Assembly (NCBI GenBank): GCA_031275285.1
Contig: JAISOY010000159.1
Location: forward strand, 1 to 64,000
DNA from: Bacteroidales bacterium
Lineage (GTDB): Bacteria; Bacteroidota; Bacteroidia; Bacteroidales; UBA4181
DNA length: 64,000 nt
Reading direction: 5' to 3'
Of the stretch, positions 10,413 to 36,175 are shown one piece after another. The position numbers and the translations under genes are program-made. How positions within the stretch are numbered: the stretch's first letter is position 1; every line of letters begins with the position of its first letter. The notes under the pieces are model-generated. The model was not told the DNA's origin and did not search any database. It saw nothing but the letters and a program-made list of their open reading frames with translations.

Positions 10413-10575
10413 TTCGTATATTTGTAGAATATAGGATACGCCTTGGACAAAATTTCAAGCAAGCTTGATTTTGCCTCTCGGCTTTCACTATATTTGTAGA
10501 ATATAGGATGCGGTTCGGCAATTATTCAAAAGCAAGCTTTCCACAATTGCTCTTACCTTTCACTATATTTGTATC
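10413..10575. repeat. Tandem hairpin repeat (two units plus partial) carrying -7 promoter boxes
   Basis: A unit of 72-75 bp recurs. TATATTTGTAGAATATAGGA appears at 10417 and 10489, and TATATTTGTA at 10564. Between the boxes are hairpins with an inner stem closed by an AA loop (CAAGC-AA-GCTTG within 10448-10473; AAAGC-AA-GCTTT within 10518-10550) and outer stems (CAAAAT/ATTTTG; GCAATT/AATTGC). The stems change sequence but keep pairing. Another unit is at 36095-36175. The last box (10564-10571) is a well-placed -7 element for the ABC transporter gene at 10606. The remainder of 10309-10412 shows no gene. Confidence 0.75.
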
Positions 10576-10605
10576 TAATTGGTATATCAAAGATCTTAGT
10601 AGACT

Positions 10606-13600
10606 ATGAGTGAACGCATATTAAAAGCCTTAATGCAATTATTTGCAATTATTTCGCGGCCGGAAAGCAGTTCCTCCGAACGTCATAAGGTCATAGAGGG
10701 CTTCCTTCGCAAACAACTCAACAGTGAACTGGCAGAAGAATATATTGAGATATTCAATAATTATTTTTCACAGTATCAGGAAAAATATAAAGATACCCAT
10801 AAACATCAGAAACACACTGCTTCGAGTTCTGTTAAATTGCTGGTAATCAGTGATCAGATTAATAAGGAACTAACCCAGAGTGAAAAGTTCTCACTGATGG
10901 TACTGTTGCTTAGCTTTATAAAGTCGGGGCATGGACCGCAAAGCACCATCTCCGAATTTGAGCAGGAGTTTGTAGAAACTGTAGCCAGTGCATTGAATAT
11001 TGAACAGGATGAGTTCCTGGAACTGATCCAGTTTGTCATGCTTCCGGTGGAATTCCTATCCTCTTCTCCCAATCTTTTGCTCATAGATCAGAATGATCAT
11101 GCGGAAAAAGAATATAAGCATCTGCACCGCGATGGGATCCATCGGCCATTAGTCATATTGCATGTAAAAAGCGTGAACATGTATATATGCCGTTATGAGG
11201 GAAATAAAGAACTGTTTCTCAATAACCAGATGATAGAACGGGAGCAGATCTACATATTGAATTATGGTAGCAGTATCCGGAATTCCCAGATCAAACCTAT
11301 CTATTACAGTGATATCGTCAACTGTTTTTATCTTAGCACGCGGGCTAACCCCATGTTGTTCAAGGCTGAAGAGGTAGAATATAAATTTGAAAACGGAACC
11401 ATCGGATTACATCCCGTCAATTTTGAGATACTATCGGGAAATATTGTCGGGATCATGGGGGGAAGTGGTGCCGGAAAGTCTACGTTATTAAATGTCTTTA
11501 CCGGATTGGACCGGCCAACCTCCGGAAAAGTGTTTCTAAACAATGTTGATGTCCATAAACAGGGTCATGAAATCGAGGGGCTCATAGGTTTCGTCGCTCA
11601 AGATGATCTTTTGGTTGAAGAGCTGACTGTATTTCAGAATTTGTATTTTAATGCCAAACTCTGTTTCGGACAATATCCCGAAGAGGAAATCCGGAAAAGA
11701 ACGGATGAGGTATTGCGGGATCTCGGTTTGTATGAGATTCGTGATATGAAGGTCGGATCACCATTGGATAAAAAAATCAGCGGGGGACAAAGGAAGCGGC
11801 TTAATATCGCATTGGAACTGATACGGCAACCTGCTGTATTATTCCTTGATGAACCGACATCCGGACTTTCTTCCAGAGATTCGGACAATATCATGACTTT
11901 ACTTAAAGACCTTTCTTTGAAAGGAAAATTAGTCTTTGTTGTGATTCATCAGCCGTCTTCCGATATTTTTAAAATGTTCGACCGCCTATTGGTACTTGAT
12001 CAGGGGGGATATCTTATATACAACGGTGATCCGGTTGATTCGATCCTGTATTTTAAATCACAGGCACACCAGGCCAACAGGGATACCAGCGAGTGCCCCG
12101 AATGTGGAAATGTAAATCCTGAACAGATTTTTAATATTGTTGAAGCGCGTATACTTGATGAGCATGGACAACCTTCGGATACCCGGCGTATTTCACCAAA
12201 AGAATGGTACGAATTGTTCAGGAAGGTTCCGGTAGCCCGGATACCGGAGGAGGAAAGACCCGAAGAATTGCCTGATGCGACACTGAAAAGGCCATCCAGG
12301 ATAAAACAGTTTATGGTATATGCAACACGCAATATCCTTACCAAACTCAGCGATAGGCAGTATATCATGGTTTGCCTTCTGGAAGCGCCATTGCTTGCAT
12401 TGATCCTCTCATACATTATCCGCTATTATGACGTTTCTAACGGCAGCTATACTTTTGAACTGAATGAAAATGTTCCGATCTATATTTTTGTTGCGGTGAT
12501 CATTGCCATATTTATCGGACTTTCCATGAGCGCGGAAGAAATAATAAAAGACCGGAAAATCCTGAAACGGGAAGCCTTTCTCAATCTTAGCAGGGGAAGC
12601 TATCTCTTTTCAAAAATCATGGTGTTGTTCGGTATTTCTGCTATACAGGCGGCATTATTTGTTTGGGTGGGAAATGGTATTATCCAGATTGCGAGCATGT
12701 CGATAGTATACTGGTTGGTATTGTTCTCAGCATGGGCTTGTGCCAATATGATGGGATTGATCATCTCTGATGCTTTTAAATCGGTAGTAACCATCTATGT
12801 CCTTATTCCCTTCATCGTCATTCCGCAATTGATGTTAAGCGGGGTATTGTTACGTTTTGAAAAAATAAACCCGACTATCTCTTCTCCTGCATCTGTTCCC
12901 TGGTATGGAGAAATCATTACAGCCCGTTGGGCATTTGAAGCATTGGCCGTAGAACAGTTTATGAACAATGACTATGAACGGGTCATGTATCCTTATGAAA
13001 AAAACATGAGTACGGCTGAATTCAGAAAAAACTACTGGCTGGTGGAAATGAAAAACAAACTGGCGGAAGTAAATACGGCACTGGAGAATGGTAGGGAACC
13101 TGACAGTAAGACCATAACCTTATTATGCAATGAAATCGCTTCGGAAAATAAACATCAGGATCTTGTGGCATTCGATTTTTGCGGCATCATGAATAACAAA
13201 GGGCTATCTACGGATCTGATCAATCGGACAACACAATATTTTGACCAGTTATCCAGGTATTATACTGTATTATATAACAAATCAGCCGGACAAAAAAATC
13301 AGTTGATTTCAAAAATTATGGCTACAAATCCTGATAGCCTGCGTCTTTTAAAATCGAAGTATTACAATCAAAGCCTGGCCGATATGGTAAAGAACAGTAA
13401 TGAAACCCATCGTTTGATTGAATACAAAAACCAGTTATTACAAAATTATCATCCGATCTATAAAGATCCGGAACATCCGTTTATCAAAGCTCAGTTTTAT
13501 GCACCGGCCAAGCGTTTTTTAGGTCAGGATTACCCCACCATGTGGATCAATGTTGTTATCATATGGTGTTTCAATATTTTCTTCTTTTTTGCCTTATACT

Positions 13601-13653
13601 TTAGATGGTTACCCAAGCTGATGAAGCTGTTTAGAAAAGATTTTTCCGGATAG
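10606..13653 (+). CDS. ABC transporter, fused ATPase-permease (ABCG-like) with TerB-like N-terminus
   Basis: The product is 1015 aa. Residues ~50-150 resemble a TerB-like helical domain (acidic, with SEFEQEFVETVASALNI). Residues ~190-245 form a small beta-rich, FHA-like segment. The ABC ATPase follows, with Walker A GGSGAGKST at 285-293, signature SGGQRKR near 392 and Walker B VLFLDEPTSGL near 412-422. The EPTSGL and IHQPSSDIFKMFD motifs are typical of ABCG/White half-transporters. The C-terminal half has about six membrane segments (ABC-2 type), with a large ~150-residue soluble insertion before the last one. It probably works as a homodimeric exporter in the inner membrane. Cargo unknown; it appears monocistronic. 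Confidence 0.88.
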   Translation: MSERILKALMQLFAIISRPESSSSERHKVIEGFLRKQLNSELAEEYIEIFNNYFSQYQEKYKDTHKHQKHTASSSVKLLVISDQINKELTQSEKFSLMVLLLSFIKSGHGPQSTISEFEQEFVETVASALNIEQDEFLELIQFVMLPVEFLSSSPNLLLIDQNDHAEKEYKHLHRDGIHRPLVILHVKSVNMYICRYEGNKELFLNNQMIEREQIYILNYGSSIRNSQIKPIYYSDIVNCFYLSTRANPMLFKAEEVEYKFENGTIGLHPVNFEILSGNIVGIMGGSGAGKSTLLNVFTGLDRPTSGKVFLNNVDVHKQGHEIEGLIGFVAQDDLLVEELTVFQNLYFNAKLCFGQYPEEEIRKRTDEVLRDLGLYEIRDMKVGSPLDKKISGGQRKRLNIALELIRQPAVLFLDEPTSGLSSRDSDNIMTLLKDLSLKGKLVFVVIHQPSSDIFKMFDRLLVLDQGGYLIYNGDPVDSILYFKSQAHQANRDTSECPECGNVNPEQIFNIVEARILDEHGQPSDTRRISPKEWYELFRKVPVARIPEEERPEELPDATLKRPSRIKQFMVYATRNILTKLSDRQYIMVCLLEAPLLALILSYIIRYYDVSNGSYTFELNENVPIYIFVAVIIAIFIGLSMSAEEIIKDRKILKREAFLNLSRGSYLFSKIMVLFGISAIQAALFVWVGNGIIQIASMSIVYWLVLFSAWACANMMGLIISDAFKSVVTIYVLIPFIVIPQLMLSGVLLRFEKINPTISSPASVPWYGEIITARWAFEALAVEQFMNNDYERVMYPYEKNMSTAEFRKNYWLVEMKNKLAEVNTALENGREPDSKTITLLCNEIASENKHQDLVAFDFCGIMNNKGLSTDLINRTTQYFDQLSRYYTVLYNKSAGQKNQLISKIMATNPDSLRLLKSKYYNQSLADMVKNSNETHRLIEYKNQLLQNYHPIYKDPEHPFIKAQFYAPAKRFLGQDYPTMWINVVIIWCFNIFFFFALYFRWLPKLMKLFRKDFSG

Positions 13654-13749
13654 ATGATCTTTAAAATCGTTTCATGGTATTTTACTAAATCATCTTTTTA
13701 AGTAGATGTTCATAATTAGTTTCCATTATCATATTTTCTGTTTCCCCAC

Positions 13750-14025
13750 TCATACAGTGGTATTACACCTGGGAGCCTGATCTTCCGGAAGCGGGCACCA
13801 GTCCTGCAAAGTGAAGGGGTAAGCCGGAAGCTGTCTGAGCCGCCAGGCAAGTTCTTCCGGCGTCCCGTAGTGTGCAGTGACTGGTCGCTGAGGAAGTAAG
13901 CCTTGATTTTTACTCACCATAGATAATTTATATGGTGTTCGTGAGATCACTTCGTTTAGTTGCTTCTTTTTATCAAGAAAAAGAAGAGTAAAAAATGATT
14001 CTATGTATGATATAATTTTGAACAT
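13750..14025 (-). CDS. Hypothetical 91-aa protein of unusual composition
   Basis: The protein is unrecognised. An AT-rich N-terminal third (MFKIISYIESFFTLLFLDKKKQ) precedes a clearly GC-richer C-terminal half rich in Pro, Leu and Arg (GTPEELAWRLRQLPAYPF...). An exact -7 box TAATTTTG lies on the minus strand at 14085-14078, ~50 nt before the start, so it could be expressed, either alone or downstream of the regulator. The abrupt composition change suggests a fused relic or a spurious ORF. The flanks 13654-13749 and 14026-14102 hold nothing else that I can see. Confidence 0.35.
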   Translation of the reverse strand: MFKIISYIESFFTLLFLDKKKQLNEVISRTPYKLSMVSKNQGLLPQRPVTAHYGTPEELAWRLRQLPAYPFTLQDWCPLPEDQAPRCNTTV

Positions 14026-14102
14026 TTACTTATTAAAATAAGATACAATTCAAAGAAAAGTTTCAGATAAGGATTTGCAAAATTACGAACAAGTATTGCG
14101 GG

Positions 14103-15290
14103 TCATGTTTCTTTTCCTTCCTCTTCAATATTCGATATCCTGAATTTCTTCTTGTATTGTAAGGGAGTAATTCCTTTTATCTTGGTAAAAATCCTCGATA
14201 CATTTTTGTAATCGTCAAATCCGGACTGATAAGCAGCATCAATTAGAGGTATGTCTGTATTAATCAATAATTCCGAAAATTTTTCTACCCTATATTGTTG
14301 TAGGTATTGATAAATCGACATTCCGGTTTCTTTTTTGAATAATTTTTCCAAAACCCTTCTGGAAAAAGGTCCAGTATCGACAATATCATCGACCGAAAGG
14401 GTGTTCATGTAGTTTTCCTCAATATGTTTCAATATTTTCTCTATATTTTTGTCGGATACGGCATAACGCTCGGTAGAACCACGGGTCACGATACGTAAAG
14501 GCTTGATCACCACATCGGCAGACGATTTCCGCTTTTTCCTGATCTGTTCGTGAAGTAATTTTCCCAATTCATACCCTCCGTTTTGAATATCCAGTTCAAT
14601 TGAAGAAAGGGGCGGATTGGATATATTACACAACAGTTCGTCATTATCAACACCCAATACTGCGATATCATTGGGGACGTGTATATTGAAAATTTTGCAC
14701 ACCTCGGTTATTTGTAAGGCATGATAATCATCACAAGCAAATAATGCAACAGGTTTAGGCAAACCAAGAAGCCAGTGATATAAAACATCCGTATCAAAAT
14801 TCCATTTTTCGGTTTTATTCGTATCTGCCGGTTCCTTAAAAGAATAGACATCAAATCCTTTTTTATTCAGGGTATCTTCAAATCCATCTCCCCGTTCCCG
14901 CATCCATACCGTTTCGGAGAACCCATAATAAGCAAAGTAACGAAATCCCCTCTGCAGGAAAAACTCTGCAGCCATAACACCGGTATGATAATAATCTCCG
15001 GTAAGATTAGATATACCATCATACCGGTCCTTGTAATTTTGGATAACCACCGGAATTTTAAGCTTATTCAATGCCTTCACATCAACATCCGATAACTGTG
15101 CGATGACAGCATCAGCTTTCCATTGTCTGGCCCACTCTACTACTCCTTCATCCCCATATAATTCACGATAATATATGGGCATGCGGTAAAAAATCCAGGG
15201 ACCATACTCCTTTGAGTAGCGAACAACCCCCTTGATCATGCTCCGGCTATATCCGCTGGATAAATCCGTTAATAGAAGAATTCTTGTCAT
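14103..15290 (-). CDS. XylR-type AraC-family transcriptional regulator
   Basis: The product is 395 aa. Residues 1-~270 form a periplasmic-binding-protein-like sensor domain of the XylR/LacI type (MTRILLLTDLSSGYSRSMIKG... with VAVLGVDND and LSSIELD motifs). Residues ~285-385 are two AraC helix-turn-helix motifs ending in SRIFTKIKGITPLQYKKKF. By family it is a cytoplasmic one-component sensor that activates sugar-catabolic genes on binding a mono- or oligosaccharide. It is divergent from the GH-like lipoprotein at 15439 and heads the island. Its own -7 box (minus strand, 15319-15312, TATCTTTG) lies next to the operator-like site at 15331-15356, which suggests autoregulation. It is the best candidate for the factor binding the four shared sites. 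Confidence 0.9.
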   Translation of the reverse strand: MTRILLLTDLSSGYSRSMIKGVVRYSKEYGPWIFYRMPIYYRELYGDEGVVEWARQWKADAVIAQLSDVDVKALNKLKIPVVIQNYKDRYDGISNLTGDYYHTGVMAAEFFLQRGFRYFAYYGFSETVWMRERGDGFEDTLNKKGFDVYSFKEPADTNKTEKWNFDTDVLYHWLLGLPKPVALFACDDYHALQITEVCKIFNIHVPNDIAVLGVDNDELLCNISNPPLSSIELDIQNGGYELGKLLHEQIRKKRKSSADVVIKPLRIVTRGSTERYAVSDKNIEKILKHIEENYMNTLSVDDIVDTGPFSRRVLEKLFKKETGMSIYQYLQQYRVEKFSELLINTDIPLIDAAYQSGFDDYKNVSRIFTKIKGITPLQYKKKFRISNIEEEGKET

Positions 15291-15330
15291 TCAATCAATA
15301 TTAAGAGTTAACAAAGATACAAAAAAGACG

Positions 15331-15357
15331 CTTTTTGAGGATAAATATTCGTAATTT
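15331..15357 (+). promoter_or_regulatory. Operator-like site A (shared island motif)
   Basis: TTTTTGAGGAT, three bases, TATTCG, then TAATTT. It matches sites at 17895, 38315 and 50270 with the same 9-base distance from GAGGAT to the end of TTCG. On the plus strand a TTTCTTTG (15385-15392) begins 48 bp after GAGGAT and would be the -7 box of the gene at 15439. On the minus strand the site covers the -33 region of the regulator gene. Confidence 0.6.
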
Positions 15358-15438
15358 ATCTATATTCGATCGATCTTTGTGTCATTTCTTTGTACCAGGG
15401 GAGAAAGAATAAAAGAATTATCCTTAAAATATCTAATA

Positions 15439-17784
15439 ATGAAAAGAATAAAAATTATCTACATTGTTTTATTTATCTACATGTTAGGAATAGGAATTTC
15501 TGCTTGTCATCAAACCGGATCTACTATGGCTAAAATATCTACTCAGGAGGATATTCAACTACCTGAAGGGAAAGCACCGGAGCCGGAACCTATTCCTCAT
15601 TTTCCGGATAAGTTGCATGCTTTTGTATGGAGAAATTGGAATCTTGTAGATTTGGAAAAGATGGCACAAGTACTAAAAACCTCACCTTCAAAAGTAAAAA
15701 AACTGGCAGGCTCAATGGGTTTGCCGGCTTACCAAAAGCCAAAATGGACGACTGAACAAATCTATATTACCCTGATCAGGCGTAATTGGCATCTTTTACC
15801 TTACGAACAATTATTGGAATTAGTTGAGATGACACCTGAACGATTGAATTTTTCGCTCAGGGAAGATGATTTCCTATGGGTAAAGTTAGGAAACCTAAAA
15901 CCCAAATGTCAACCGTTGATCTATGAAAATCCATCTAAAGAGTCAAAAAAACGAGCCAAAGAGATCAGTAAAGTCCTAAAAGGACAAATCGGTAAAAAGC
16001 AGTTAAATGCTGCGGTAGAACCACGTTTTGCTTTTATCGATGAAATAAAGAAAACCGATGGGATTCCACGGGAAAAAATAGTTTCTGATAAGGAAAAAGG
16101 ATCTTTACGGTTTATCTATTCTTACTTTGCTTTATTTGGAGACCCTTTATTCAGTGACGAAGATATTTTTGCCGAAGGGTTATTAGAAAAATTATCAGCA
16201 TTAGGGGTTAATGGAGTATGGTTGCATGTTTTGCTTCGCGACCTGGCCCCTGGAGGAAATGCCTTTCCCGAATTTGGTGCAGGACATGAAAAGCGGCTGG
16301 AGAATCTTCGCAAAACAGTAGATCTGGCACAAAAATACGGGATCGATATTTATCTGTACTTAAATGAACCCAGGGCTTTACCTGCATCTTTTTTTAATAA
16401 CCCTGATATTCCCGGTAGAGAATCGACAAAAGGAGTCCGCGAAGGTGAATATCATGCATTATGTACCTCTAATGATGATGTCCGGAATTGGATAAAAGAT
16501 GCTTTGACTTACATTTTTACACAAGTTCCGGAACTTGGAGGCGTATTCACGATCAGCGGCTCGGAAAACCTTACTTTCTGCAATTCGCATGGGGGATGGC
16601 AGCAATGTCCGTGCTGTAAAGAAAAATCCGGAGCGGAAGTGACTGCCGATGCCAATGCGCTCATTGCAGAGGGCGTACATCGTGCATCGCCTGATGCAAA
16701 GGTGATTATATGGGATTGGGGATGGAACAGGCACGGAATAGCAACAGACGTAATTGAAAAACTCCCTTCTGACGTATGGTTGATGTCGGTAAGTGAATGG
16801 GCATTACCTATAGAAAGAGGCGGAATAGAAAGTAAAATAGGCGAATACTCAATATCTGCAGTAGGGCCGGGTCCCCGGGCGAAAGAGCATTGGCGTGCTG
16901 CAAAAGAAAAAGGAATAAAGACAGCTGCAAAAGTGCAGTTCAATTGTACCTGGGAAATAGCTGCCGTACCATTTGTACCGGTGATGGATCTGATTGCTGA
17001 ACATTGCAGTAACCTTGCCGAAAGTGGTGTTGACGGATACCTGCTCAGCTGGACGTTAGGAGGGTATCCATCTCCTAACCTCGAAATACCTCAATATTTC
17101 GATCGCACGCCTACGCCCTCAACGGAACAGGTATTGGATAAACTGGCGATAAAACGTTATGGAAATAAAGGCGCTCCGTATGCACGGAATGCATGGAGCG
17201 CTATGAGTAATGCTTATCGGGAATACCCTTATTCGGGAGCAGTTGTTTACTTTTCTCCGGTACAGATAGGCCCGGCAAACTTACTTAGGCCTGAAGCAAC
17301 CGGATATAGTGCGACCATGTCGGGAATTCCTTATGATGATCTGACAAAATGGCGAAGTATATATCCTGCTGAAATATTTGCCCGGCAATTTGAAAAAATG
17401 GCTAAAGGATTTTCTGAAGCTATTCCTTTATTGAAACAGGCTGTAGATATGGCTGATAAGGAGTATATAGCAAGTGTGGAAGACGAATTGCGTTTTGCCA
17501 AAGTAGTATGCATCCACTTTGAAAGCGTAGCCAACCAGGTGCGTTATATATTATTACGGGACCAATATCTCGCACCGGAAATTCAACCGGAAAAGAGAAA
17601 AGAAGTTGCACAACAGATGAAGCCTCTGATAGAGCGTGAAATGTCCCTGGCAAACGAACTGTATCTTTTAACATTGGAAGATTCCCGGATCGGATTTGAA
17701 TCGGCCAATCAATATTTTTATGTACCCAATGATCTGCTGGAGAAGATAATCAGCTGCCAACAAATACTTGATCAGTTAGAGTGA
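15439..17784 (+). CDS. Lipoprotein with glycoside-hydrolase-like TIM barrel and N-terminal HTH-like repeats
   Basis: The product is ~781 aa from the ATG at 15439; an upstream in-frame start at 15379 would overlap the predicted promoter. A lipoprotein signal ends at Cys23 (GISACHQ). Residues ~50-165 hold two related modules with an RNW-L core (HAFVWRNWNLVDLEKM..., TLIRRNWHLLPYEQL...), each looking like a helix-turn-helix. The remainder resembles a GH20/GH163-type barrel: YLYLNEPRA, TISGSENLTFC with a candidate acid Glu, a CPCC cluster, and WDWGWNRHG. Catalysis and substrate are unproven. It is outer-membrane or periplasm anchored. It is the first plus-strand gene after the divergent regulator, so it is likely a regulated enzyme of the island. 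Confidence 0.72.
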   Translation: MKRIKIIYIVLFIYMLGIGISACHQTGSTMAKISTQEDIQLPEGKAPEPEPIPHFPDKLHAFVWRNWNLVDLEKMAQVLKTSPSKVKKLAGSMGLPAYQKPKWTTEQIYITLIRRNWHLLPYEQLLELVEMTPERLNFSLREDDFLWVKLGNLKPKCQPLIYENPSKESKKRAKEISKVLKGQIGKKQLNAAVEPRFAFIDEIKKTDGIPREKIVSDKEKGSLRFIYSYFALFGDPLFSDEDIFAEGLLEKLSALGVNGVWLHVLLRDLAPGGNAFPEFGAGHEKRLENLRKTVDLAQKYGIDIYLYLNEPRALPASFFNNPDIPGRESTKGVREGEYHALCTSNDDVRNWIKDALTYIFTQVPELGGVFTISGSENLTFCNSHGGWQQCPCCKEKSGAEVTADANALIAEGVHRASPDAKVIIWDWGWNRHGIATDVIEKLPSDVWLMSVSEWALPIERGGIESKIGEYSISAVGPGPRAKEHWRAAKEKGIKTAAKVQFNCTWEIAAVPFVPVMDLIAEHCSNLAESGVDGYLLSWTLGGYPSPNLEIPQYFDRTPTPSTEQVLDKLAIKRYGNKGAPYARNAWSAMSNAYREYPYSGAVVYFSPVQIGPANLLRPEATGYSATMSGIPYDDLTKWRSIYPAEIFARQFEKMAKGFSEAIPLLKQAVDMADKEYIASVEDELRFAKVVCIHFESVANQVRYILLRDQYLAPEIQPEKRKEVAQQMKPLIEREMSLANELYLLTLEDSRIGFESANQYFYVPNDLLEKIISCQQILDQLE

Positions 17785-17894
17785 GTCAGGACAAAAAGTA
17801 ATATTATCTTTAAAAAATATTTCTTACGTTGAACAATAATTGAATGTAAATTGTTAAGTATGATTTATACCTAATAACAATAATGAAAAACAAC

Positions 17895-17923
17895 GTTTTT
17901 TGAGGATTTAATTTCGCAAATTA
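17895..17923 (+). promoter_or_regulatory. Operator-like site B and promoter for the SusC operon
   Basis: TTTTTTGAGGAT, TTA, ATTTCG, CAAATTA. A TTATTTTG (17949-17956), one mismatch from TAnnTTTG, begins exactly 47 bp after GAGGAT, the same geometry as site C at 38315. No TTTG lies at -33, as expected for an activator-dependent promoter. The remaining 17785-18477 interval contains no ORF I would support, so the SusC mRNA would carry a leader of ~500 nt. Confidence 0.6.
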
Positions 17924-18477
17924 TCCACAAGGAAAAAAATTGTTAGTGTTATTTTGTATATGATAGGAATCTTTCCAAATCAACCTATCTGTGATATCTA
18001 AAGTTTTATGATCTGATCAGGTGCTCCTGTAAAGACAATATCTTGTAATTGAGTTTGATAAATTATAATCTTATTTGCCTATGATAAAAAAGAAACGGTA
18101 AGTGCGGCCACACCCACCGTTATAAACTTTACTGTCGATTATATTAAATAATCGCATTAATTAGAATGACAAAAATATGATAATAAACCGTTGTAAAAAA
18201 CTATTTATCAATAAAAAGGAAATATTTTTTTGATATCTACCGCCTTCTTCTTTGTAAGCATCTGTATTCTTAATCTTTGATGTGAGGACTCGACAATAAG
18301 ATGTCTGAACATATTTGAATAACCGGTGGAAATAATACCCTCATGCCCGTGATATTAATTGCCGGTAAGGAGGATATGGTGACCTGTCTGTTAAATCAAC
18401 AACGAATTTCAGCCCTTTTTGGCAAAAGAATGAGAGGCCATAAATTGTTTCGAGAATTAACTAAAAATTAAAAAAAC

Positions 18478-25151: not shown

Positions 25152-25203
25152 ATAGAGTTGAAGGACACTCACGACATACTGAATATTTAATTAAGAAAAG
25201 TAT

Positions 25204-26791: not shown

Positions 26792-28705
26792 ATGAAAAAG
26801 TATGTTTTTCTTTTGATGGCCCTTTTGGGCATAGGGTGCTGGGCTTGTAAGGATGACGACCCGTCGCCGCCGAAACCCGTTATTTTATTATCGGCACCTG
26901 CCAATGCATCTTCTTGTGAGCTGGAAACTGTGGATGATGTCACTTTTTCGTGGGCCGTGAGCAGTGGTGAAGTCGCCGGAGGATATACCTTGTACCTGAG
27001 TCTGTCAGCTGACCTGGTCTCTGCAAAAACCTATACCTCTACCCAGCTTCTGTTAAAGATCGCTTCCGGTAACTTAGATGCCTTGTTGGGAGAATGGGGT
27101 GTTGCCCTGGGTGCGGAAGCTACGGTATATTGGTCGGTGAAGCCTTCCGTGGAAGGTGAAGCCACTCCGCCGGCAGAATCACGGAACGTGAAAATGAAAA
27201 GACTTCCTAAACCGGCTCCTGTAATTTCCTTATCCGAACCGGATGCAGAAGCTTTTATTGACCTGAAAGGCCTCAGTAATATAAATTTCTCGTGGAAGTT
27301 GGGTGAGGAGGATGTTATTACCGGCGGATATACCCTGTATATCAGCAATACGGAAGATCTGGCTTCTTCGCTTACGTATACATCTGAAGAACTTTCTAAA
27401 GCGGTAGATACCAACGAACTGGATGAAAAACTGGAAGAATGGGGTTACACCTGGGAAGCAGAAGCGGAAATTTTCTGGACGGTAAAGCCCACAGAACCTC
27501 AAATTGCAACTGTCCCGGATGCAAGGAAGATAAAAATCAAGCGTTTACCCAGGTCGTCCAGTGTTCTGGGGAGTATGCAAAATGTTCAGGTGTATCCTGG
27601 TTATGAGCGGATTCTTGTAACCTGGGAACAAAATCCTGATCCTATGATTGAACAAACCGTACTTTATTGGAATAATAAAGCGGATTCGGTTGTAATTGAT
27701 TTTGTCAGAACAGAGGATGGTTGGCAAAAAGAGTCTGTTTACATTCCCAATCTAACGGAAGGAACAGCGTATACTTTTAAGTTATTCAATAAAAATTCAC
27801 TTGGGGACAGATCTGCTCCGGAAGGTGTTCAATCGGGAGGATGTACTCCTTACGGGCCGGTATGGGAAGCCACCTTGGGTGGGAAAAACACAAGAGAGTT
27901 AACCAGAATCCTGCCAACGGCCTATAATCCCGCTTCTCCCAATACAACGGTGGGTAATGTGACCCTTACATGGGATAATGCTCCGGCTAATAGCGTAAAA
28001 ACCGTAGTGGAATACAAAAAAACGGGAAGCGGTACGCCTTCCAATGTATATGTCAGCAATAATGCAACATCAACCGCATTGACTCAAGTGGGTAATAATC
28101 TTCTCGATCCGGATCACCTCCTTTATGTAAAAACACTATATGCCCCTGAAGGCGGAATTGATACCCTTGAATCGAAAACTTTATTAAGCCAGATGGTGGT
28201 TTATATCGCGGATATAGAGAAATCACATAAAAGGCTGAATTACAATCATCATCTTAAACCTCCGACCTGGACAGAGACAATTATATCAGCTACTGATGAA
28301 CGGTTGATCTGGGGGATGAATCAGGAAGATAAGATTACGGTATTTGATTGCAACCGATTCGGCAGCTTCGGTATTTTCGGAGGTGCTGAATTTATCAATC
28401 AATATGGAGAGAATTCTCGTTTTCAAATGAAATGGACAATCAATGCAGACAATACGGTAACTGTTGAAGGACGCGATAACGATCCTGCTGCCGGGTATAC
28501 TATTCACAACAATGACCAAACCAGGGGTGAAGGAGGAAGCTCTGCTTCCCATGGTACAGCCGGTGTGGTTACTATAGATGAAGGTCCGTCGACCTTTAAT
28601 CCATCGGATCGTACTTTAGCTATGAATTATATGCGAATAGTGGTCGGTACCACTTCTACAGGAATAAAAACATTTTTCCTGGAGACCCTTAAACCCAAAC
28701 CTTAA
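26792..28705 (+). CDS. SusE-like surface lipoprotein with DUF4998 domain
   Basis: The product is 637 aa with lipobox GCWACKDD (Cys19). Two tandem SusE-type Ig modules (LLSAPANAS... and SLSEPDAEA..., each with FSW-x-GYTLYLS) occupy residues ~30-255. A DUF4998-like module (NVQVYPGYERILVTWEQNPDPM) and a fibronectin-like part follow. The last ~150 residues look like a beta-sandwich ligand-binding domain (AEFINQYGENSRFQMKW). SusE/F-type proteins bind polysaccharide at the surface and sit downstream of SusCD, as here. The gene ends the first part of the operon at a clear terminator. Confidence 0.85.
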   Translation: MKKYVFLLMALLGIGCWACKDDDPSPPKPVILLSAPANASSCELETVDDVTFSWAVSSGEVAGGYTLYLSLSADLVSAKTYTSTQLLLKIASGNLDALLGEWGVALGAEATVYWSVKPSVEGEATPPAESRNVKMKRLPKPAPVISLSEPDAEAFIDLKGLSNINFSWKLGEEDVITGGYTLYISNTEDLASSLTYTSEELSKAVDTNELDEKLEEWGYTWEAEAEIFWTVKPTEPQIATVPDARKIKIKRLPRSSSVLGSMQNVQVYPGYERILVTWEQNPDPMIEQTVLYWNNKADSVVIDFVRTEDGWQKESVYIPNLTEGTAYTFKLFNKNSLGDRSAPEGVQSGGCTPYGPVWEATLGGKNTRELTRILPTAYNPASPNTTVGNVTLTWDNAPANSVKTVVEYKKTGSGTPSNVYVSNNATSTALTQVGNNLLDPDHLLYVKTLYAPEGGIDTLESKTLLSQMVVYIADIEKSHKRLNYNHHLKPPTWTETIISATDERLIWGMNQEDKITVFDCNRFGSFGIFGGAEFINQYGENSRFQMKWTINADNTVTVEGRDNDPAAGYTIHNNDQTRGEGGSSASHGTAGVVTIDEGPSTFNPSDRTLAMNYMRIVVGTTSTGIKTFFLETLKPKP

Positions 28706-28723
28706 GATGTAACATTTGTACTT

Positions 28724-28760
28724 AAACAAGTTGGTGTATTTTACACCAACTTGTTTTATT
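28724..28760 (+). terminator. Rho-independent terminator inside the island
   Basis: A perfect 15-bp stem AAACAAGTTGGTGTA / TACACCAACTTGTTT with a 3-nt TTT loop and a T-rich tail. It lies 18 bp after the SusE-like gene and 32 bp before the BACON-EEP gene, so expression of the downstream genes should drop or rely on another promoter. Confidence 0.85.
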
Positions 28761-28791
28761 CTCTTTCCTGATTTATAATATTTTCTATTCT

Positions 28792-30726
28792 ATGCCTTAT
28801 ACAAGTAAAATACGAGCAACCTCTAAATATCTTATCCTGTTTTTGGTTATTTTGAACGTTGCCTGTAAGAAAGAGACGACCGAACCTTTTTTCAGGATGG
28901 ATGAGTCGGAGTTGCTACAGAATATGAGTGCGGAGGAGGGGAACAGGAAGGTCACCATCTCCACCAATCAGAAATATACAGTCATATCTTCTCAATCATG
29001 GTGCAAAGTTTCTGTTTTTCAGGATTATTTCTCCATCTCTGTTTACGGGAATGAAGATCTGCAATCAAGGACTGCGTCCATTACAATAACATCCAAAGGA
29101 TTCCCGGAACGGGTTGTAACGGTGGTACAAGCCGGAACACCTTCTGTCTGGGGTATTCCTGAAGAATCCTTGATACAGCATTTCACCATGGATGGCGATA
29201 TCCGTACCATTGCAGTTCCAACTGTCCGGGAATATACAGCTACCTCTTCTCAAACATGGTGTGCTGTAACAATCACGGATGATGGTCTTGAAATCACAGT
29301 AACTCCTAATGATGGGGAGAAAAGGACCTCTCTTGTTACCCTTGGCGCCGAAGGGCTTTCCGATATTTTCCTCAAAGTGACCCAGGATGGTGCTATTCCT
29401 TTTCTGGAGGTGCCGGACGATCAATTAATCCAATATTTTGATGAAAACGGAGGTACGCGGATTATTACGGTGGCATGTCACCAAAAATATACGGCTATAT
29501 CCTCTGAAACCTGGTGTTATGCGGAAGTCTGTGATAATGGGTTGAAAATATCCATACCCCAAAACAAAAGTTCGGAACGGACAGCCCGAATTATGGTTTC
29601 TTGTAACAATATGCCGGACATCACTATCGATGTGGTACAGGAGGGTATTACTCCGTTTATCTCGGTAAAAGAATCAGGAATCTGGCTTCGGGCAGGAATA
29701 CAGGAATTTTCTTTAACTGTTACCGCCAATATCCCGTTCGTTTTTGAACTTCCGGCGTGGATACGGAAAATATCATGCAGTCCCTGTGAAACGGCCATTC
29801 GGAAATACACTTTTATCGCCTCTTCTCCGGTAACTGTTCAGGAGAACATCATCATCAAAGGAGTGGATGGCGACGTGCAGGCGGTGGTTCCGGTGATACA
29901 GCAGGAAGTGATGGCGATCAAGGCCATGACCTATAATGTACGGGTATATTCATCCAATGACGGCGACAATAACTGGCCCAACAGAAAAGATGTAGCGGCG
30001 CAGATCATTAAGAACGAAGGAATTGATGTTGCCGGATTGCAGGAGATGAGTAAAAATATTTTAGGAGTGGATCAGTTCGGAGATTTAAAAACGTTGTTAT
30101 CTGAAGATTATGATGCATATGGATACGGGCGCGACGAAAGTTCGATCTCAGATGAGTACAATGCCATATTTTACAAAAAAAGCCGTTTTCGTCTCATCAA
30201 ATCCGGTGTTTTTTGGTTGAGTGAGACACCCGATGTGAAATCAAAAGGCTGGGATGCCGCTTACTATCGTATTGCCGTATGGACCATACTGGAAGACAAA
30301 AATGACGGGCAACGTTTGTTCTTCATCAATACACATCTGGATAATTCGGGGCCAACCGCACGACTGGAAGGCGTCAAGCTGATTATGACCAGGATCAATT
30401 CCCTGAGTGAGGGATTACCGGTTGTTCTGACAGGAGATTTTAATGCCGTACCTGCATCCGAACCGGTCAGGTATATAACGAATCCTTCCATTCCGGATCA
30501 TTTGTTACATACAAAGGATATTGCGGAAAGCAGAAGCGGTCCGAACTGGACCATTCACGATTATGGCGTGACGCCGGAAAGTCAGCGGATATTTCTTGAT
30601 TATATATTTGTCAACCGCTCATCGGAAGTCACTAATCATACTGTTCTCCCTGAAAAACTGAACAACATCTTTTTATCAGATCATTGTCCTGTTACTTCGG
30701 AGATTTTATTAATGAAAAACCTGTAG
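28792..30726 (+). CDS. Lipoprotein with BACON domains and an endonuclease/exonuclease/phosphatase (EEP) domain
   Basis: The product is 644 aa with a lipoprotein signal ending at the Cys of LNVACKKE. Three clear BACON repeats (each with KYTxxSSxxWC and a V-QxG end) plus a fourth, weaker one span residues ~30-375. The C-terminal EEP domain has all key residues: N-terminal MTYNVR, Glu418 (LQEM), His515 (NTHLD), Asp549/Asn551 (GDFNA) and Asp630/His631 (SDHCP). EEP enzymes hydrolyse phosphodiesters or phosphomonoesters, including nucleic acids, inositol phosphates and sphingomyelin. BACON domains tether surface enzymes near glycans. The substrate is open; a phosphodiester-bearing glycoconjugate fits the island. 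Confidence 0.85.
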   Translation: MPYTSKIRATSKYLILFLVILNVACKKETTEPFFRMDESELLQNMSAEEGNRKVTISTNQKYTVISSQSWCKVSVFQDYFSISVYGNEDLQSRTASITITSKGFPERVVTVVQAGTPSVWGIPEESLIQHFTMDGDIRTIAVPTVREYTATSSQTWCAVTITDDGLEITVTPNDGEKRTSLVTLGAEGLSDIFLKVTQDGAIPFLEVPDDQLIQYFDENGGTRIITVACHQKYTAISSETWCYAEVCDNGLKISIPQNKSSERTARIMVSCNNMPDITIDVVQEGITPFISVKESGIWLRAGIQEFSLTVTANIPFVFELPAWIRKISCSPCETAIRKYTFIASSPVTVQENIIIKGVDGDVQAVVPVIQQEVMAIKAMTYNVRVYSSNDGDNNWPNRKDVAAQIIKNEGIDVAGLQEMSKNILGVDQFGDLKTLLSEDYDAYGYGRDESSISDEYNAIFYKKSRFRLIKSGVFWLSETPDVKSKGWDAAYYRIAVWTILEDKNDGQRLFFINTHLDNSGPTARLEGVKLIMTRINSLSEGLPVVLTGDFNAVPASEPVRYITNPSIPDHLLHTKDIAESRSGPNWTIHDYGVTPESQRIFLDYIFVNRSSEVTNHTVLPEKLNNIFLSDHCPVTSEILLMKNL

Positions 30727-30736
30727 ATATAAGGCC

Positions 30737-32854
30737 ATGTATCTGAGATTATCCCTGCTTTTTATCTTATTTTTACGTATTCCGGTGGTATTATCCCAGG
30801 ATTATACCGTCGCCAAAATATGGGATGCGGCTCCTCATAACGCTTTTACAGACCTGACCAGGTATGCGGGGAAATATTATTGTATATTCAGGGAAGGACC
30901 GGGGCATAATCCTACGCCCGGTAACCCGGCTGATGGAAAAGTACGTATTCTTGTTTCGGCAGATGGGGAAAATTGGGAATCGGCAGCATTACTGGAGAAA
31001 GAAGGCGTGGATCTGAGGGATTCAAAATTTTCCGTCACACCCGATGGGCGTTTGATGATCCTGATGGGCGGTAGCTTCTATCCCAACGGAACGCTCACTG
31101 GTCGCCAACCCCATGTGGTTTTTATGGATCCTCAGGGGAAATTTACCGGAATCATGCCGGCCAATATTGATGAAAGTATCCGTTCTTATATGGACTGGCT
31201 ATGGCGGGTTAGCTGGGATCCGAAAACCGGAACCGGGTATGGTGTCGTCTATCAGGATTTTCCGGACAAGGAAAGCGGTTTGTACCTGGTAAAAACCGTT
31301 GACGGCAAAAATTATACCCATGTTTCACGATTGAATCTTACCGGAAAACCAAACGAATCCACTGTTGAAATGCTGGAAGACGGTAAAATGCGTATGATTG
31401 TCCGGCGTGAAGGATCCGACAAAAAGGGGATGGCCGGGTTGATCGGTTATAGTGAAGCGCCTTATGTTGAATGGCAATGGTATGATCTGGGCATTCGTTT
31501 AGGTGGGCCGAACATCATCACTTTACCCAATGGAAAAACCCTGATCGGAAGTCGTTTTCACGTAGATCCTACAAAAAATTTTCCGGCGCGTATGTCACTT
31601 TTCGGATTGGATAAAAATAACAAGGCAGTAAAGTGGTTGGATCTGCCCAGTGGAGATGAGGGGGATACGAGTTATCCCGGTTTTCTTGTTGTCGGGGATG
31701 AACTCTGGGTCTCCTATCATTCCACAGATAAGGCTAAAACAGGAATATATCTGGCAAAGATAAAACTGGCGTTTTTCAATACTTCCGTTGATAATGAACT
31801 GATCTCCGTAAGCAATATAGAATCACAGATGTATACCGGATCGGCCATCTGTCCGGAACCGGTTATTACGGATACGGAAAACGGAAAGATACTGGTTCAG
31901 GAAACAGATTATACTTTAAGTTATGCCAACAATACTGAAATAGGATATGCCCGGATCATTATCGGCGGTATAGGGAATTATAAAGGCAGCCGGACTGTAA
32001 CATTCAGGATTATCTCTGACGTCCGGCCTTCTGTGGAAAAGATCGAAGTCAATCATGAAACGGTAGCCTCCCTTTCCCGTCCTTTTGTGGATATGGGCTG
32101 CGGGACCGCCGCTGCCACTATAAAAGTTGTCGTTCCTTCACAGGATATCAGGGTCAATTTTCATGTTTCAGATAAGGTGTATTCAGGTGGTTATTCAGTT
32201 ACCATTCCGTTAGAACAACCGCAAATATACCGGGTCGGCATTACGGCCTATTCCGATATCTCCGAAAGAACCTATGATCTGCAAATCGAAAGACGTTTTG
32301 AATTTGATCATCTGGTGGCCATCCGGAACCATACCCTCTCTGTGTTGCCGTCTTTCGGCAACATAGGTTTCAAATCATGGCAATTATACCGGAAACCTGC
32401 CGGACAGCAAGACTTTACGCCTCTGCTGGTTGAGGCCGGAGCAGCATACGTGCCTGTTACCATGAGTTACACCCCTTCCGGCAATGAAATACCGGCGAAT
32501 CCAGAAGATGTTTATTACGCGGCTGTAGTCACCATGGACAACGATACCATCCGCAGTTGTGAAAAGAAATGGGACATTATCGCGTTTGTCGATCAAAAAA
32601 CCGCCGGAAATGCGGATTTCCGCATATATCCCAATCCGGTGATACGGGGAATGGAATTTTTCTTTGAAGGACCCTATGAACAGGCCGGAAAAACAGAGAT
32701 ACTGATGTTGCATTTATCCGGATATCCTGTTTTACAGATGCATGTGACCGAACCGTCCGTCCGTGTCAAAGCGCCGGATACCCCGGGAATCTATCCGCTG
32801 ATTGTCCGGACAGGAAATAAGAAATGTAAGAACTGGAAAGTAATTGTTCAATAG
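30737..32854 (+). CDS. Sialidase-fold beta-propeller protein with T9SS type A sorting domain
   Basis: The product is 705 aa with signal peptide (MYLRLSLLFILFLRIPVVLSQ). Residues ~25-350 form a sialidase-type propeller. Asp-box-like ILVSADGENWES, HNAFTDLTRYAGKYYCIFREG and IIGGPN-like repeats match a broad family annotated as exo-alpha-sialidase or BNR; the canonical FRIP arginine motif is not seen, so sialic acid cleavage is doubtful. Ig-like and linker regions follow. The last ~75 residues (FRIYPNPVIRG ... GIYPLIVRTGNKKCKNWKVIVQ) are a T9SS type A signal, so the protein is exported by T9SS and attached at the surface. It starts 10 bp after the EEP gene. Confidence 0.82.
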   Translation: MYLRLSLLFILFLRIPVVLSQDYTVAKIWDAAPHNAFTDLTRYAGKYYCIFREGPGHNPTPGNPADGKVRILVSADGENWESAALLEKEGVDLRDSKFSVTPDGRLMILMGGSFYPNGTLTGRQPHVVFMDPQGKFTGIMPANIDESIRSYMDWLWRVSWDPKTGTGYGVVYQDFPDKESGLYLVKTVDGKNYTHVSRLNLTGKPNESTVEMLEDGKMRMIVRREGSDKKGMAGLIGYSEAPYVEWQWYDLGIRLGGPNIITLPNGKTLIGSRFHVDPTKNFPARMSLFGLDKNNKAVKWLDLPSGDEGDTSYPGFLVVGDELWVSYHSTDKAKTGIYLAKIKLAFFNTSVDNELISVSNIESQMYTGSAICPEPVITDTENGKILVQETDYTLSYANNTEIGYARIIIGGIGNYKGSRTVTFRIISDVRPSVEKIEVNHETVASLSRPFVDMGCGTAAATIKVVVPSQDIRVNFHVSDKVYSGGYSVTIPLEQPQIYRVGITAYSDISERTYDLQIERRFEFDHLVAIRNHTLSVLPSFGNIGFKSWQLYRKPAGQQDFTPLLVEAGAAYVPVTMSYTPSGNEIPANPEDVYYAAVVTMDNDTIRSCEKKWDIIAFVDQKTAGNADFRIYPNPVIRGMEFFFEGPYEQAGKTEILMLHLSGYPVLQMHVTEPSVRVKAPDTPGIYPLIVRTGNKKCKNWKVIVQ

Positions 32855-32942
32855 AAATTATTTGACGAGTGTTTTTTGATGACTGACAAAATCACTGATT
32901 TCAGACTCAAAATCTTTAGCCAAATTAAGCCAATCAAATTCT

Positions 32943-33869
32943 ATGAAATTCCACCTATTCCTTTTTCCTTTTTTAATCTGTTTTTCTTCTTGTACAAATA
33001 GCGGAAAATTACTTTCCTCTAAAGCTTTCCATATCTTATCACAGGGGCTGTCACAAAATGAAAGATGGGAAAAAGTACATGCCGCGGAATTTTTACTGGA
33101 TTTAGGGCATGAAGAACATGTTCGAACCACATTCCTTTCCGAATATGATCAGTACGGACATGTTCCGCAATACAGGATCGGTATCTGGCGGGTACTATAC
33201 AAATGTTCGGAAGGATCCGAAAAGAAAAAATACGGAGATAGTATTTATCAGGCTTTTGTCCGGCCGGATTCTCCTGACCGTCTGCATGCGGTGGAAACCC
33301 TCGCTAAATTAAACATGGCAAAAAGAGATGCCGATACGGCAATCATCGCGTCGGCATTAACATCCACGGATTTACAGATGTGCTTGTATACCCGGTGGTG
33401 GGTACTCCCTCAGCAGGAAAACGGGATAGATCGACTGAAAAACCTGTTGTTTGGGATCATCCGGTCCGGCCAAAACGATGAACCGGTCCGCCGACTGGCA
33501 GCATACATTATCAGGGAAGATCGATCCATCGTACTTACCCTTGAAGAATGGATGCAGATGAAAGATATCGCGGTAGCCGAACCCATTTCGTCAACAGCCA
33601 GGGCCCAACTTCTGGCGACTTTATTTTCAAAAGCATCCTGTGAGGTAACTATGTTGCCCGGGTTCGGAGAAGTAAAAAAAGCACTTCTCAGGTACAAAGA
33701 ATCCGAAGTCGCTCATATGTATCAATTATGTCTGGCATTCGCCGAAAAGGGAACTTCAGGTGATGTCCGCATGTTGGCATCTTTGCTGGATAATGAGTCA
33801 GATGATGTGAAAAATGCGGCGGCCTATGCTATTTTACGGATAGTTGCCCGGAACAAGGAAAAATATTAA
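32943..33869 (+). CDS. HEAT-repeat-like lipoprotein
   Basis: The product is 308 aa with signal peptide and lipobox CFSSCTNS (Cys17). The remainder is all-alpha with repeated ~35-residue helical pairs (WEKVHAAEFLLDLGH, SPDRLHAVETLAKLN, DDVKNAAAYAILRIV), typical of HEAT/PBS-lyase scaffolds. No catalytic motif is seen. Such repeats mediate protein binding, so it may organise the surrounding enzymes in the periplasm. Its end overlaps the start of the next frame, but the chosen MFS start at 33883 leaves a 13-bp gap. Confidence 0.7.
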   Translation: MKFHLFLFPFLICFSSCTNSGKLLSSKAFHILSQGLSQNERWEKVHAAEFLLDLGHEEHVRTTFLSEYDQYGHVPQYRIGIWRVLYKCSEGSEKKKYGDSIYQAFVRPDSPDRLHAVETLAKLNMAKRDADTAIIASALTSTDLQMCLYTRWWVLPQQENGIDRLKNLLFGIIRSGQNDEPVRRLAAYIIREDRSIVLTLEEWMQMKDIAVAEPISSTARAQLLATLFSKASCEVTMLPGFGEVKKALLRYKESEVAHMYQLCLAFAEKGTSGDVRMLASLLDNESDDVKNAAAYAILRIVARNKEKY

Positions 33870-33882
33870 ACCGAAAGGATCC

Positions 33883-35157
33883 ATGAATCATCCATTGTCA
33901 ACACCTGTTCAGATAAAAATTTCTTCGAGGGCCTGGATTACCGTTGCACTCCTGTTCGTGGTAGGTGCCCTCAATTACCTCGACCGTATGATGATAGCGA
34001 CCATGCGGGAATCGCTTGTCACGGCCATACCTATGACTGATGCACAGTTCGGATTATTGACTTCTGTATTTTTATGGGTTTACGGTCTGTGTAGTCCTTT
34101 TGCCGGCTTTATTGCAGATAAGTTCAAAAAAAGCTATGTCATCATTGGCAGCTTGTTTGTATGGTCGGGAGTAACCTGGTTAACCGCACATGCTACCACT
34201 TTCGAGCAATTACTGGCTACAAGAGCCTTGATGGGCATCAGTGAAGCATTCTATATTCCCGCAGCGCTTGCCCTGATCGTCGATTACCATAAAGGTACTA
34301 CACAGTCGCTGGCTGTCGGACTACATCTTGCCGGAACCACTGTCGGACAAAGCCTGGGTTTCCTGGGTGGATGGGTGGCGGAAAAATATACATGGAGCCA
34401 TGCTTTTAATATATTCGGTCTGATTGGCGTTTTATATGCTGTTTTACTGATCTTCACTTTAAGAGAAGCTCCCAAAAGTAATAACAGGAACCTGAATACG
34501 GATCTGAAGGACAAAATTCCGGGTATCCGCTTTAAAGATGCCATGAAAAACATATTTGCTAAGAAAACATTCATCTACCTGTTGTTTTTCTGGTGCCTGA
34601 TCAGCATTGTGGGATGGCTGGTCATCGGATGGCTGCCTACCTATTATAAAGACCATTTCCAGCTTTCTCAAAGTGTAGCCGGAGTATATGCGACCGCATA
34701 CCTATATCCGGCCTCTATTCTGGGACTGATTATTGGAGGTTTCTGGTCGGACAAATGGATCAGGACCAATCCTTATGCACGTATTCTTGTTCCTATGATC
34801 GGTCTCAGTATTGCAGCTCCTTGTGTTTTTATGGCCAGCTACACTAATATTCTGATCATCGCCATTATCTTCTTTATGATGTACGCATTTCTAAAGATGT
34901 TTGTCGATTCCAACCTGATGCCTATTTTGTGTATATTGATCGATGAACGTTACAGGGCTACCGGATACGGAATCCTTAATATGCTGGCAACTATCGTAGG
35001 TGGTGTGGGTATTTATGTGGCCGGTGCATTACGCGATTCCAATATCAACCTGGGAGTTGTGTATCAATCGGCTTCATTGTGTATTGTCCTTTGTGTGGTT
35101 TTGTTATGGCTGATCAGAAGAAATGCACGGGAAATGACCAAAAATAAAATATTATAA
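33883..35157 (+). CDS. MFS transporter, anion:cation symporter (ACS) type
   Basis: The product is 424 aa from the ATG at 33883; the frame is open from 33844 inside the previous gene. About 12 membrane segments are visible. The first-helix motif ALNYLDRMMIATM and the loop GFIADKFKKSYVI match the ACS family, which imports organic anions such as hexuronates and aldonates. It is in the inner membrane. Directly downstream (12 bp) is a 2-keto-3-deoxy acid aldolase, which together suggests uptake and cleavage of a sugar acid. Substrate specificity cannot be read from sequence. Confidence 0.85.
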   Translation: MNHPLSTPVQIKISSRAWITVALLFVVGALNYLDRMMIATMRESLVTAIPMTDAQFGLLTSVFLWVYGLCSPFAGFIADKFKKSYVIIGSLFVWSGVTWLTAHATTFEQLLATRALMGISEAFYIPAALALIVDYHKGTTQSLAVGLHLAGTTVGQSLGFLGGWVAEKYTWSHAFNIFGLIGVLYAVLLIFTLREAPKSNNRNLNTDLKDKIPGIRFKDAMKNIFAKKTFIYLLFFWCLISIVGWLVIGWLPTYYKDHFQLSQSVAGVYATAYLYPASILGLIIGGFWSDKWIRTNPYARILVPMIGLSIAAPCVFMASYTNILIIAIIFFMMYAFLKMFVDSNLMPILCILIDERYRATGYGILNMLATIVGGVGIYVAGALRDSNINLGVVYQSASLCIVLCVVLLWLIRRNAREMTKNKIL

Positions 35158-35169
35158 AAACAGATTTGT

Positions 35170-35946
35170 ATGAAAATGCGGGAAAGTAAGGTACTTAGAA
35201 AGCTCAGGTCGGGAGAAAATGTATGTAGCTTCAAACTGAACCTGTGCAGTGCACAGGCTGCTGAGCTGGTAGCCATGACGGGTTTCGATTGTATATGGCT
35301 GGATATGGAACACACAGCACAGGACTGGAGTATGATCAATGCTCAGAACTGGGCTGCCAAAGCTCATGATACGGATGTATTAGTAAGGGTTTCAAGAGGA
35401 GGCTACAGTGATTATATCAAGCCGTTCGAACTGGATGCTACAGGGATCATGGTGCCGCACATCATGAGTCTGGACGATGCAAAGAATGTAGTCCGTATGA
35501 CCCGCTTCCATCCTATCGGCCGCCGGCCCGTAGATGGTGGAAACAGCGACGGCGCCTATGGAATGACAGGAATGGACGACTACCTGAAAAAAGCGAATGA
35601 ACAACGTTTTGTCGTTTTACAGATCGAAGACCCGGAGCCGCTTGTTGACCTGGAAGCTATAGCGCAACTGGAAGGATACGACATGCTGTTCTTCGGGCCG
35701 GGAGATTTTAGCCAGGGCATAGGCGCCCCGGGACAGTGGGAAGATCCCCGTCTAATAAAAACACGTGAATTAATCGCAACTACGGCCCGGAAATATGGGA
35801 AGTATGCCGGGACAACAGGTAGCCCGGATAATTTTAAACAGTTGAATGATATGGGATACCAGTTTGTTAATCTGGGTGCAGATGTGGTGGGCCTGATCGA
35901 TTATTGCCGAAAACTTGTCAACGGGTTTCGGGGCGAAATGAAATAA
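35170..35946 (+). CDS. HpcH/HpaI family aldolase
   Basis: The product is 258 aa; family members are usually 250-270 aa. Motifs of the class II pyruvate aldolase fold are present: GFDCIWLDMEHT (with the catalytic Glu-His pair near the start), VLVRV, GATGIMVPH-like ATGIMVPHI, QIEDPEPLVDLEAIA, and FFGPGDFSQ (metal-binding region). The family reversibly cleaves 2-keto-3-deoxy sugar acids or 4-hydroxy-2-oxo acids to pyruvate and an aldehyde, with divalent metal. It is cytoplasmic and likely co-transcribed with the MFS gene. It could be a GarL- or RhmA-like enzyme; which one is undetermined. Confidence 0.88.
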   Translation: MKMRESKVLRKLRSGENVCSFKLNLCSAQAAELVAMTGFDCIWLDMEHTAQDWSMINAQNWAAKAHDTDVLVRVSRGGYSDYIKPFELDATGIMVPHIMSLDDAKNVVRMTRFHPIGRRPVDGGNSDGAYGMTGMDDYLKKANEQRFVVLQIEDPEPLVDLEAIAQLEGYDMLFFGPGDFSQGIGAPGQWEDPRLIKTRELIATTARKYGKYAGTTGSPDNFKQLNDMGYQFVNLGADVVGLIDYCRKLVNGFRGEMK

Positions 35947-36094
35947 AAATCTGTTCGTAAACGATAAAAATAAAACGAACCAACTGATGTTTTATAATCG
36001 CCGGTCAGGATTTGCTTCACGGAATATTACACCGGTTGCATAGTTTGGGGATCTGGGCGTGTTGTCATTCCTGTTTCAGTATCAGGATTTTTTC

Positions 36095-36175
36095 TATATT
36101 TGTAGAATATAGGATGCACCTCGGCAAAGTTTACGAACAAGTTCGACACTCTGCCCTCGGTTTTCGCTATATTTG
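36095..36175. repeat. Hairpin repeat with flanking -7 boxes (same family as 10413)
   Basis: TATATTTG at 36095-36102 and again at 36168-36175, 73 bp apart, enclose TGTAGAATATAGGATGC and a hairpin at 36123-36155. The inner stem is CGAAC-AA-GTTCG and the outer stem GGCA/TGCC. It differs in sequence from the 10.4-kb copies but has the same structure. The second box may drive the protease gene at 36296. The remainder of 35947-36295 has no gene. Confidence 0.7.

Follow-up and report, generated by a model that had tools for sequence, protein, structure and literature searches.

Integron attC sites, as in CALIN arrays, are imperfect hairpins in which an outer stem, an unpaired spacer, an inner stem and a variable terminal structure succeed one another, and they occur in tandem arrays. 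Short non-autonomous repeats are also present within Bacteroidales, where the MITE BrickBuilt occurs in Porphyromonas gingivalis. IS608 inserts precisely 3′ of TTAC, retains this target on its left, and carries a guide 5′ of the hairpin that base pairs with the target (PMC5934647). RAYT genes have been described as lying, without exception, between two inverted REPs, most of the listed REPs beginning with GTAG (PMC2817692). Here we analyze a hairpin unit of 65-90 bases that is present in ~60 copies in a Bacteroidales genome (5.54 Mb in 225 contigs), three of which lie in the window, i.e. the whole 64,000-nucleotide stretch of DNA that was analyzed. The units share with attC sites the hairpin anatomy and the tandem arrays, but have no core motifs, contain no cassette genes and sit at promoters. 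They resemble REPs and REPINs in being dispersed, multi-copy, intergenic imperfect hairpins, but are direct repeats, do not co-occur with RAYT genes and flank none of the RAYT loci examined. Their likeness to IS200/IS605 elements (IS608, ISDra2 and non-autonomous derivatives) lies in precise insertion 3′ of a short target, which is not duplicated and is retained on the left (at yajC, murI and in Proteiniphilum), in a guide at the foot of the hairpin that appears from sequence to be complementary to the target, and in a 3′ end carrying a related cleavage sequence (PMC5934647). They differ from these elements in that one hairpin constitutes the whole element, the guide spans 7 nt, the target is an 8-nt promoter box, and no Y1 gene is linked or, in most host genomes tested, present. 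The likeness to an IS200/IS605 end is one of geometry.

Copies in the window and across Bacteroidales

The sequence-only reading had noted a sequence common to units at 10417, 10489 and 36095, with bounding boxes spaced 72-75 bp apart, and both observations were borne out. The 20-mer TATATTTGTAGAATATAGGA occurs exactly at all three positions, where 0 occurrences are expected in shuffled sequence, and the box-to-box spacings are 72, 75 and 73 bp. Allowing up to two mismatches, 51 copies of the 20-mer were found genome-wide, as compared to 0 for a reversed control pattern. Fifty-six units of this genome were aligned to build a covariance model, which retrieved 63 copies when the same genome was searched. 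They comprise subtypes A, B, C and some others, with a mean divergence within each subfamily of ~4-6% from the consensus, and those of the window are a C followed in tandem by a B, plus a lone A (Table 1). The last, gene-adjacent unit of the arrays in this genome is almost always of subtype B.

Table 1. Positions of the hairpin units, their parts and neighboring genes in the window.
Feature	Position	Strand	Description
tRNA gene	3350-3424	-	
5′ box TATATTTG	10417..10424	+	Putative native -7 box (target) of the downstream ABC transporter gene, from congener comparison
Unit 1, subtype C	10425..10496	+	Covariance-model hit 94 bits; RNA MFE -17.2 kcal/mol, z -3.3
Unit 1 parts	NNN 10425-10427; guide AATATAG 10428-10434; own box 10489-10496	+	Internal loop; stem GCC/GGC; CAAG-loop hairpin; CTATATT
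Unit 2, subtype B	10497..10571	+	In tandem behind the unit 1 box; hit 95.6 bits; RNA MFE -13.5, z -2.3
Unit 2 parts	NNN 10497-10499; guide 10500-10506; own box 10564-10571	+	Stem GGT/ACC
ABC transporter gene, 1015 aa	10606..13653	+	ORF; ATPase + ABC-2 membrane domain; Pfam PF00005, PF01061
5′ box TATATTTG of single copy	36095..36102	+	Putative host -7 box, by analogy with empty sites elsewhere
Single unit, subtype A	36103..36175	+	Hit 99.1 bits; RNA MFE -16.5, z -2.3
Single-unit parts	NNN 36103-36105; guide AATATAG 36106-36112; own box 36168-36175	+	Stem ACC/GGT; CGAA-CAAG-TTCG hairpin
NPCBM/NEW2-domain protein gene, 612 aa	36296..38134	+	ORF; Pfam PF08305; downstream of the subtype A unit

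Using a strict pattern, 8 of 198 Bacteroidales genomes were positive, with a patchy distribution within genera, and the element was found in 0 of 117 genomes of the same phylum outside Bacteroidales. When 84,980 species genomes were scanned, 83 stretches were obtained, in named Bacteroidales groups that include Dysgonomonas, Parabacteroides, Proteiniphilum, Paludibacter, Bacteroides, Muribaculaceae and Rikenellaceae, and genomes other than that of the window contribute 101 hits. Eight congeneric genomes have 0 copies anywhere at the sensitivity used. Plasmids gave no matches to the element, and the phage and viral collections gave few, weak ones. The window units have no Rfam match above the gathering score, and no earlier description of the element was found in the open-access literature, although one may exist outside open-licence papers. 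Some copies depart from the standard unit. Copies truncated at the 5′ end, which retain only the right half and the 3′ box, occur at L076, L093, L106, L126, L150 and other loci, often directly upstream of intact copies, a placement that may reflect selection bias. Composite units of 137-141 bp with a second hairpin nested inside were found in Proteiniphilum (L121) and on a viral contig (L166), and in Proteiniphilum acetatigenes (L135:60-460) a different hairpin repeat (CGAAAACGTTC..GCTATGGCAAAGTTCAA..CTCATTTAGC) flanks a copy of the element.

Fold and covariation of the unit

The element has the consensus NNN-AAKATAG-GATGC-GNN-TC-(variable hairpin)-NCTC-NNC-TTTCA-CTATMTTTG. Supplied with no structure, RNAalifold returned a 3-bp stem together with the inner hairpin, with double changes in 8 of the 10 pairs. 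The 3-bp stem, which takes a different form in each of the window units, is fully paired in 39 of the 56 copies of their genome (shuffled-partner mean 14.8). Among copies of other genomes, for which anchors were fixed at the unit ends without fitting, all of its pairs are Watson-Crick in 67 of 83, as compared to a mean of 17.8 and a maximum of 31 after shuffling, its main forms there being GCC/GGC, GGT/ACC, GGC/GCC and GTC/GAC. Over the 101 hits in other genomes the covariation score is 0.533, as compared to 0.164 for shuffled partners and at most 0.091 for slid ones. The compensatory changes first noted in three units hold in this larger set of copies. The unit is closed by an outermost stem, AAKATAG/CTATMTT (AATATAG/CTATATT in the window), in which K and M change jointly. 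The original description of the hairpin was correct as to its inner stems (CAAGC/GCTTG, AAAGC/GCTTT and CGAAC/GTTCG) and outer stems, but the 2-nt AA loop that it proposed cannot close, the folded loop being CAAG, and it overlooked both the 3-bp stem and the outermost stem.

All three window units fold as predicted as RNA, with z scores of -2.3 to -3.3, and their DNA folds are weaker (z -1.1 to -2.6). Stems are often broken by changes within subfamilies, as expected for copies that decay after insertion, and the structure is kept between subfamilies. The idea that selection acts on structure and promoter together at each locus is weak, given the divergence and the broken stems. We also asked which strand actively folds by weighing G.T against A.C mismatches, but the stems contradict one another and this approach was dropped. 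The NNN triplet, which separates the 5′ box from the guide, shows 20-25% variation within subfamilies, as compared to 3-6% for most of the unit, and is often common to neighboring units of differing subtype.

Promoter boxes and empty sites

The -7 consensus of sigma-ABfr is TAnnTTTG (PMC7366714), and the element’s box matches it. Units are inserted in a single orientation, and the host -7 box directly 5′ of the element has the form TATNTTTG; the 5′ box that opens an array is flanked by a T-rich stretch, which is also seen for 51 ordinary -7 boxes in the window genome. In this genome, 31 of 36 arrays have a co-directional gene on their 3′ side (p=1e-5), as do 66 of 81 elsewhere (p=9e-9), the strand of the upstream gene being approximately even. 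The start codon mostly lies at a distance of 16-200 nt, with a minority of these calls blurred by spurious ORFs, and the start codon of the window’s ABC transporter gene lies 34 nt past the last box of unit 2. The genes downstream of the copies are unrelated to one another. Near copies in three genomes (L059, L120 and L144) there are related proteins that appear to resemble tRNA(Ile)-lysidine synthase, and these may be independent hits. The boxes that were initially read as embedded promoters do match the -7 consensus, but they are of two kinds that the sequence-only reading could not distinguish: the one upstream belongs to the host promoter behind which the unit inserted, and the one downstream is borne by the element.

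Related genomes supply empty sites. In 19 Dysgonomonas species, a single box, TATATTTG-TAA or similar, precedes yajC and there is no unit; in Dysgonomonas sp. 521, TATATTTG is followed by a 66-bp insert (CAGAATATAGG...CACTATATTTG) and then TAA, giving the layout TATATTTG-unit-TATATTTG-TAA. At murI, three Dysgonomonas species without the unit have the native box TATCTTTG, and the same TATCTTTG forms the 5′ box in the filled site of sp. 521, where the unit has the guide AATATAG and the 3′ box TATATCTG. Because TATATCTG differs from the host’s TATCTTTG, the 5′ box is the host’s own and the 3′ box is the element’s, which rules out a target-site duplication. MITEs are recognized by terminal inverted repeats together with target duplication; the ends of our element are complementary, but the second box at murI is no copy of the host box. 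Our contrast with BrickBuilt rests on these empty sites, which show no target duplication. In Proteiniphilum, one site holds a unit in three genomes, tandem units in a fourth, and only a TATATTTG or TACATTTG box in four related genomes, and at a second site (L134) two units in one genome correspond to one hybrid unit in the close relative P. acetatigenes, which we read as an array contraction inside the hairpin. At the 10.4-kb locus of the window, seven congeners carry a single TANNTTTG box ahead of the ABC transporter gene and lack the unit; congener G005 reads AAATTTCG-TATTTTTG-CAG and the window genome TATTTTTCG-TATATTTG-TAG. In the comparison of empty and filled sites the host box stays upstream, no duplication of host sequence is needed, and the 3′ end of the element puts a new -7 box where the old one stood relative to the gene. 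It is thus well supported that the units are a non-autonomous mobile hairpin that targets promoters, entering immediately downstream of sigma-ABfr -7 boxes with a single orientation and re-supplying the box. The terms ‘mobile’ and ‘UTR insertion unit’, offered originally as suggestions, are justified by the empty sites in relatives, the patchy spread and the position just upstream of co-directional genes.

Target choice and mobilization

In 42 copies from other genomes that abut host sequence, the variable letters of host box and guide are A/T in 32, C/G in 9, C/T in 1 and A/G in 0; box and guide thus agree in 41 of 42, the sole mismatch being murI. The scan pattern permitted all four letter combinations, and a few of the 42 copies may follow a decayed older copy in place of host sequence. 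As judged from these letters, the coupling could plausibly arise because the guide selects its target by base pairing, in the manner of IS608, but could also result from recombination between identical boxes.

Considering all of the evidence, we think it probable that the units are copies of a small mobile hairpin, non-autonomous and native to Bacteroidales, that inserts 3′ of -7 boxes by guide pairing and is served by a trans-acting enzyme. Such an element would move as a folded single strand, and its 5′ guide AAKATAG would have two pairing partners, the 3′ end of the element itself and the target box CTATMTT. Insertion 3′ of the short target would be IS200/IS605-like and catalyzed in trans, in most host genomes presumably by an enzyme that belongs to none of the known Y1, RAYT or Y2 families. 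The new box would itself be a target, behind which further units could stack to give tandem arrays. Judging from the center of the -7 box, transcription from the host box would begin ~3 nt past it, near the first A of the guide; mRNA from the host promoter would then start with the hairpin, and the element’s box could keep the old start site in use. Neither the variability of NNN nor the many 5′-truncated copies is accounted for by clean single-stranded DNA transposition. More tentatively, and with some doubt on our part, the units may represent a new transposition system, in which the guide of a ~70-nt gene-less element pairs with the melted -7 box strand of active promoters, and the element inserts behind the box and restores it through an enzyme outside the Y1, RAYT and Y2 families.

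The search for a mobilizing enzyme bears on a different reading, namely that the units are REP/RAYT or IS200-like elements moved by a present or past Y1 transposase, genomes without Y1 holding fossils. Their insertion geometry and guide match IS608 (PMC5934647), and the window genome encodes four IS200-like Y1 proteins and one RAYT. The RAYT gene (L160 / L241, G000:C173:53486-53965; NF047646 above cut-off) has no element beside it. However, there is no association between enzyme and element: Y1 is present in 5 of 18 element-bearing genomes (absent in 13) as compared to 4 of 12 others, and RAYT in 14 of 39 (undetected in 25) as compared to 23 of 38. In addition, none of the Y1 and RAYT loci examined has the element at its ends, the units are head-to-tail and not inverted, and the conserved GTAG of REPs is missing, the triplet after TTTG varying among TAG, CAG, AAT and GAT. 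We regard a Y1 origin as unlikely. Mobilization through RAYT and REPs was rejected for want of any association or element-flanked gene, and through Y2 (IS91) because the transposase was found in 0 of 31 element-bearing genomes. An all-against-all comparison of ORFs around ~120 arrays gave no recurrent transposase, which led us to reject a linked autonomous partner, and larger elements with the same ends were likewise rejected, only the 137-141-bp composites being found, which are too short for a gene.

Equally improbable, in our estimate, is a site-specific recombinase of the tyrosine type acting on the shared 8-bp box, as for integron cassettes or Xer-dependent elements, with the element as a double-stranded or folded circle and the hairpin as an attC-like folded site. 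It would explain why the same box stands at both junctions, with a crossover at or after box position 4 at murI, and universal host recombinases would account for the absence of a linked enzyme. The anatomy is also attC-like, with a 7-bp outer stem, a 5x5 unpaired spacer, a short inner stem, an asymmetric loop and a variable terminal hairpin. The RYYYAAC/GTTRRRY core is missing, however, nearly all copies from other genomes having the outer stem AAKATAG/CTATMTT, and the nucleotides past the box (NNN) are unconserved. Dispensing with a dedicated enzyme altogether, template switching or recombination at an 8-bp box common to the element and many promoters would agree with the box identity at every junction and with the array contraction at L134, but ~60 copies at unrelated promoters, with none in eight congeners, are hard to obtain from 8-bp identity alone, and we consider this quite improbable. 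Finally, the strong RNA fold, the fixed orientation upstream of genes, and the better preservation of the last 3′ box (29 of 36 arrays) as compared to the first 5′ box (18 of 36; p=0.013) are what one would expect of a host regulatory unit, either a promoter-proximal RNA leader or a small RNA, maintained at each gene by virtue of its function. The unrelated downstream genes, the empty sites in most related species, the many copies with broken stems and the lack of an Rfam match make this very improbable. The units could conceivably give rise to a small RNA, as was first suggested.

If the mobile-hairpin reading is true, an element that targets the core promoter and returns the box that it strikes would be a clean case of harm-avoiding target choice, and it would provide a route by which many genes of one genome acquire a common 5′ leader. 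The element would be a natural marker of sigma-ABfr promoters, and the guide/box rule could serve as a retargetable system for DNA insertion in Bacteroidales, for which few tools exist.
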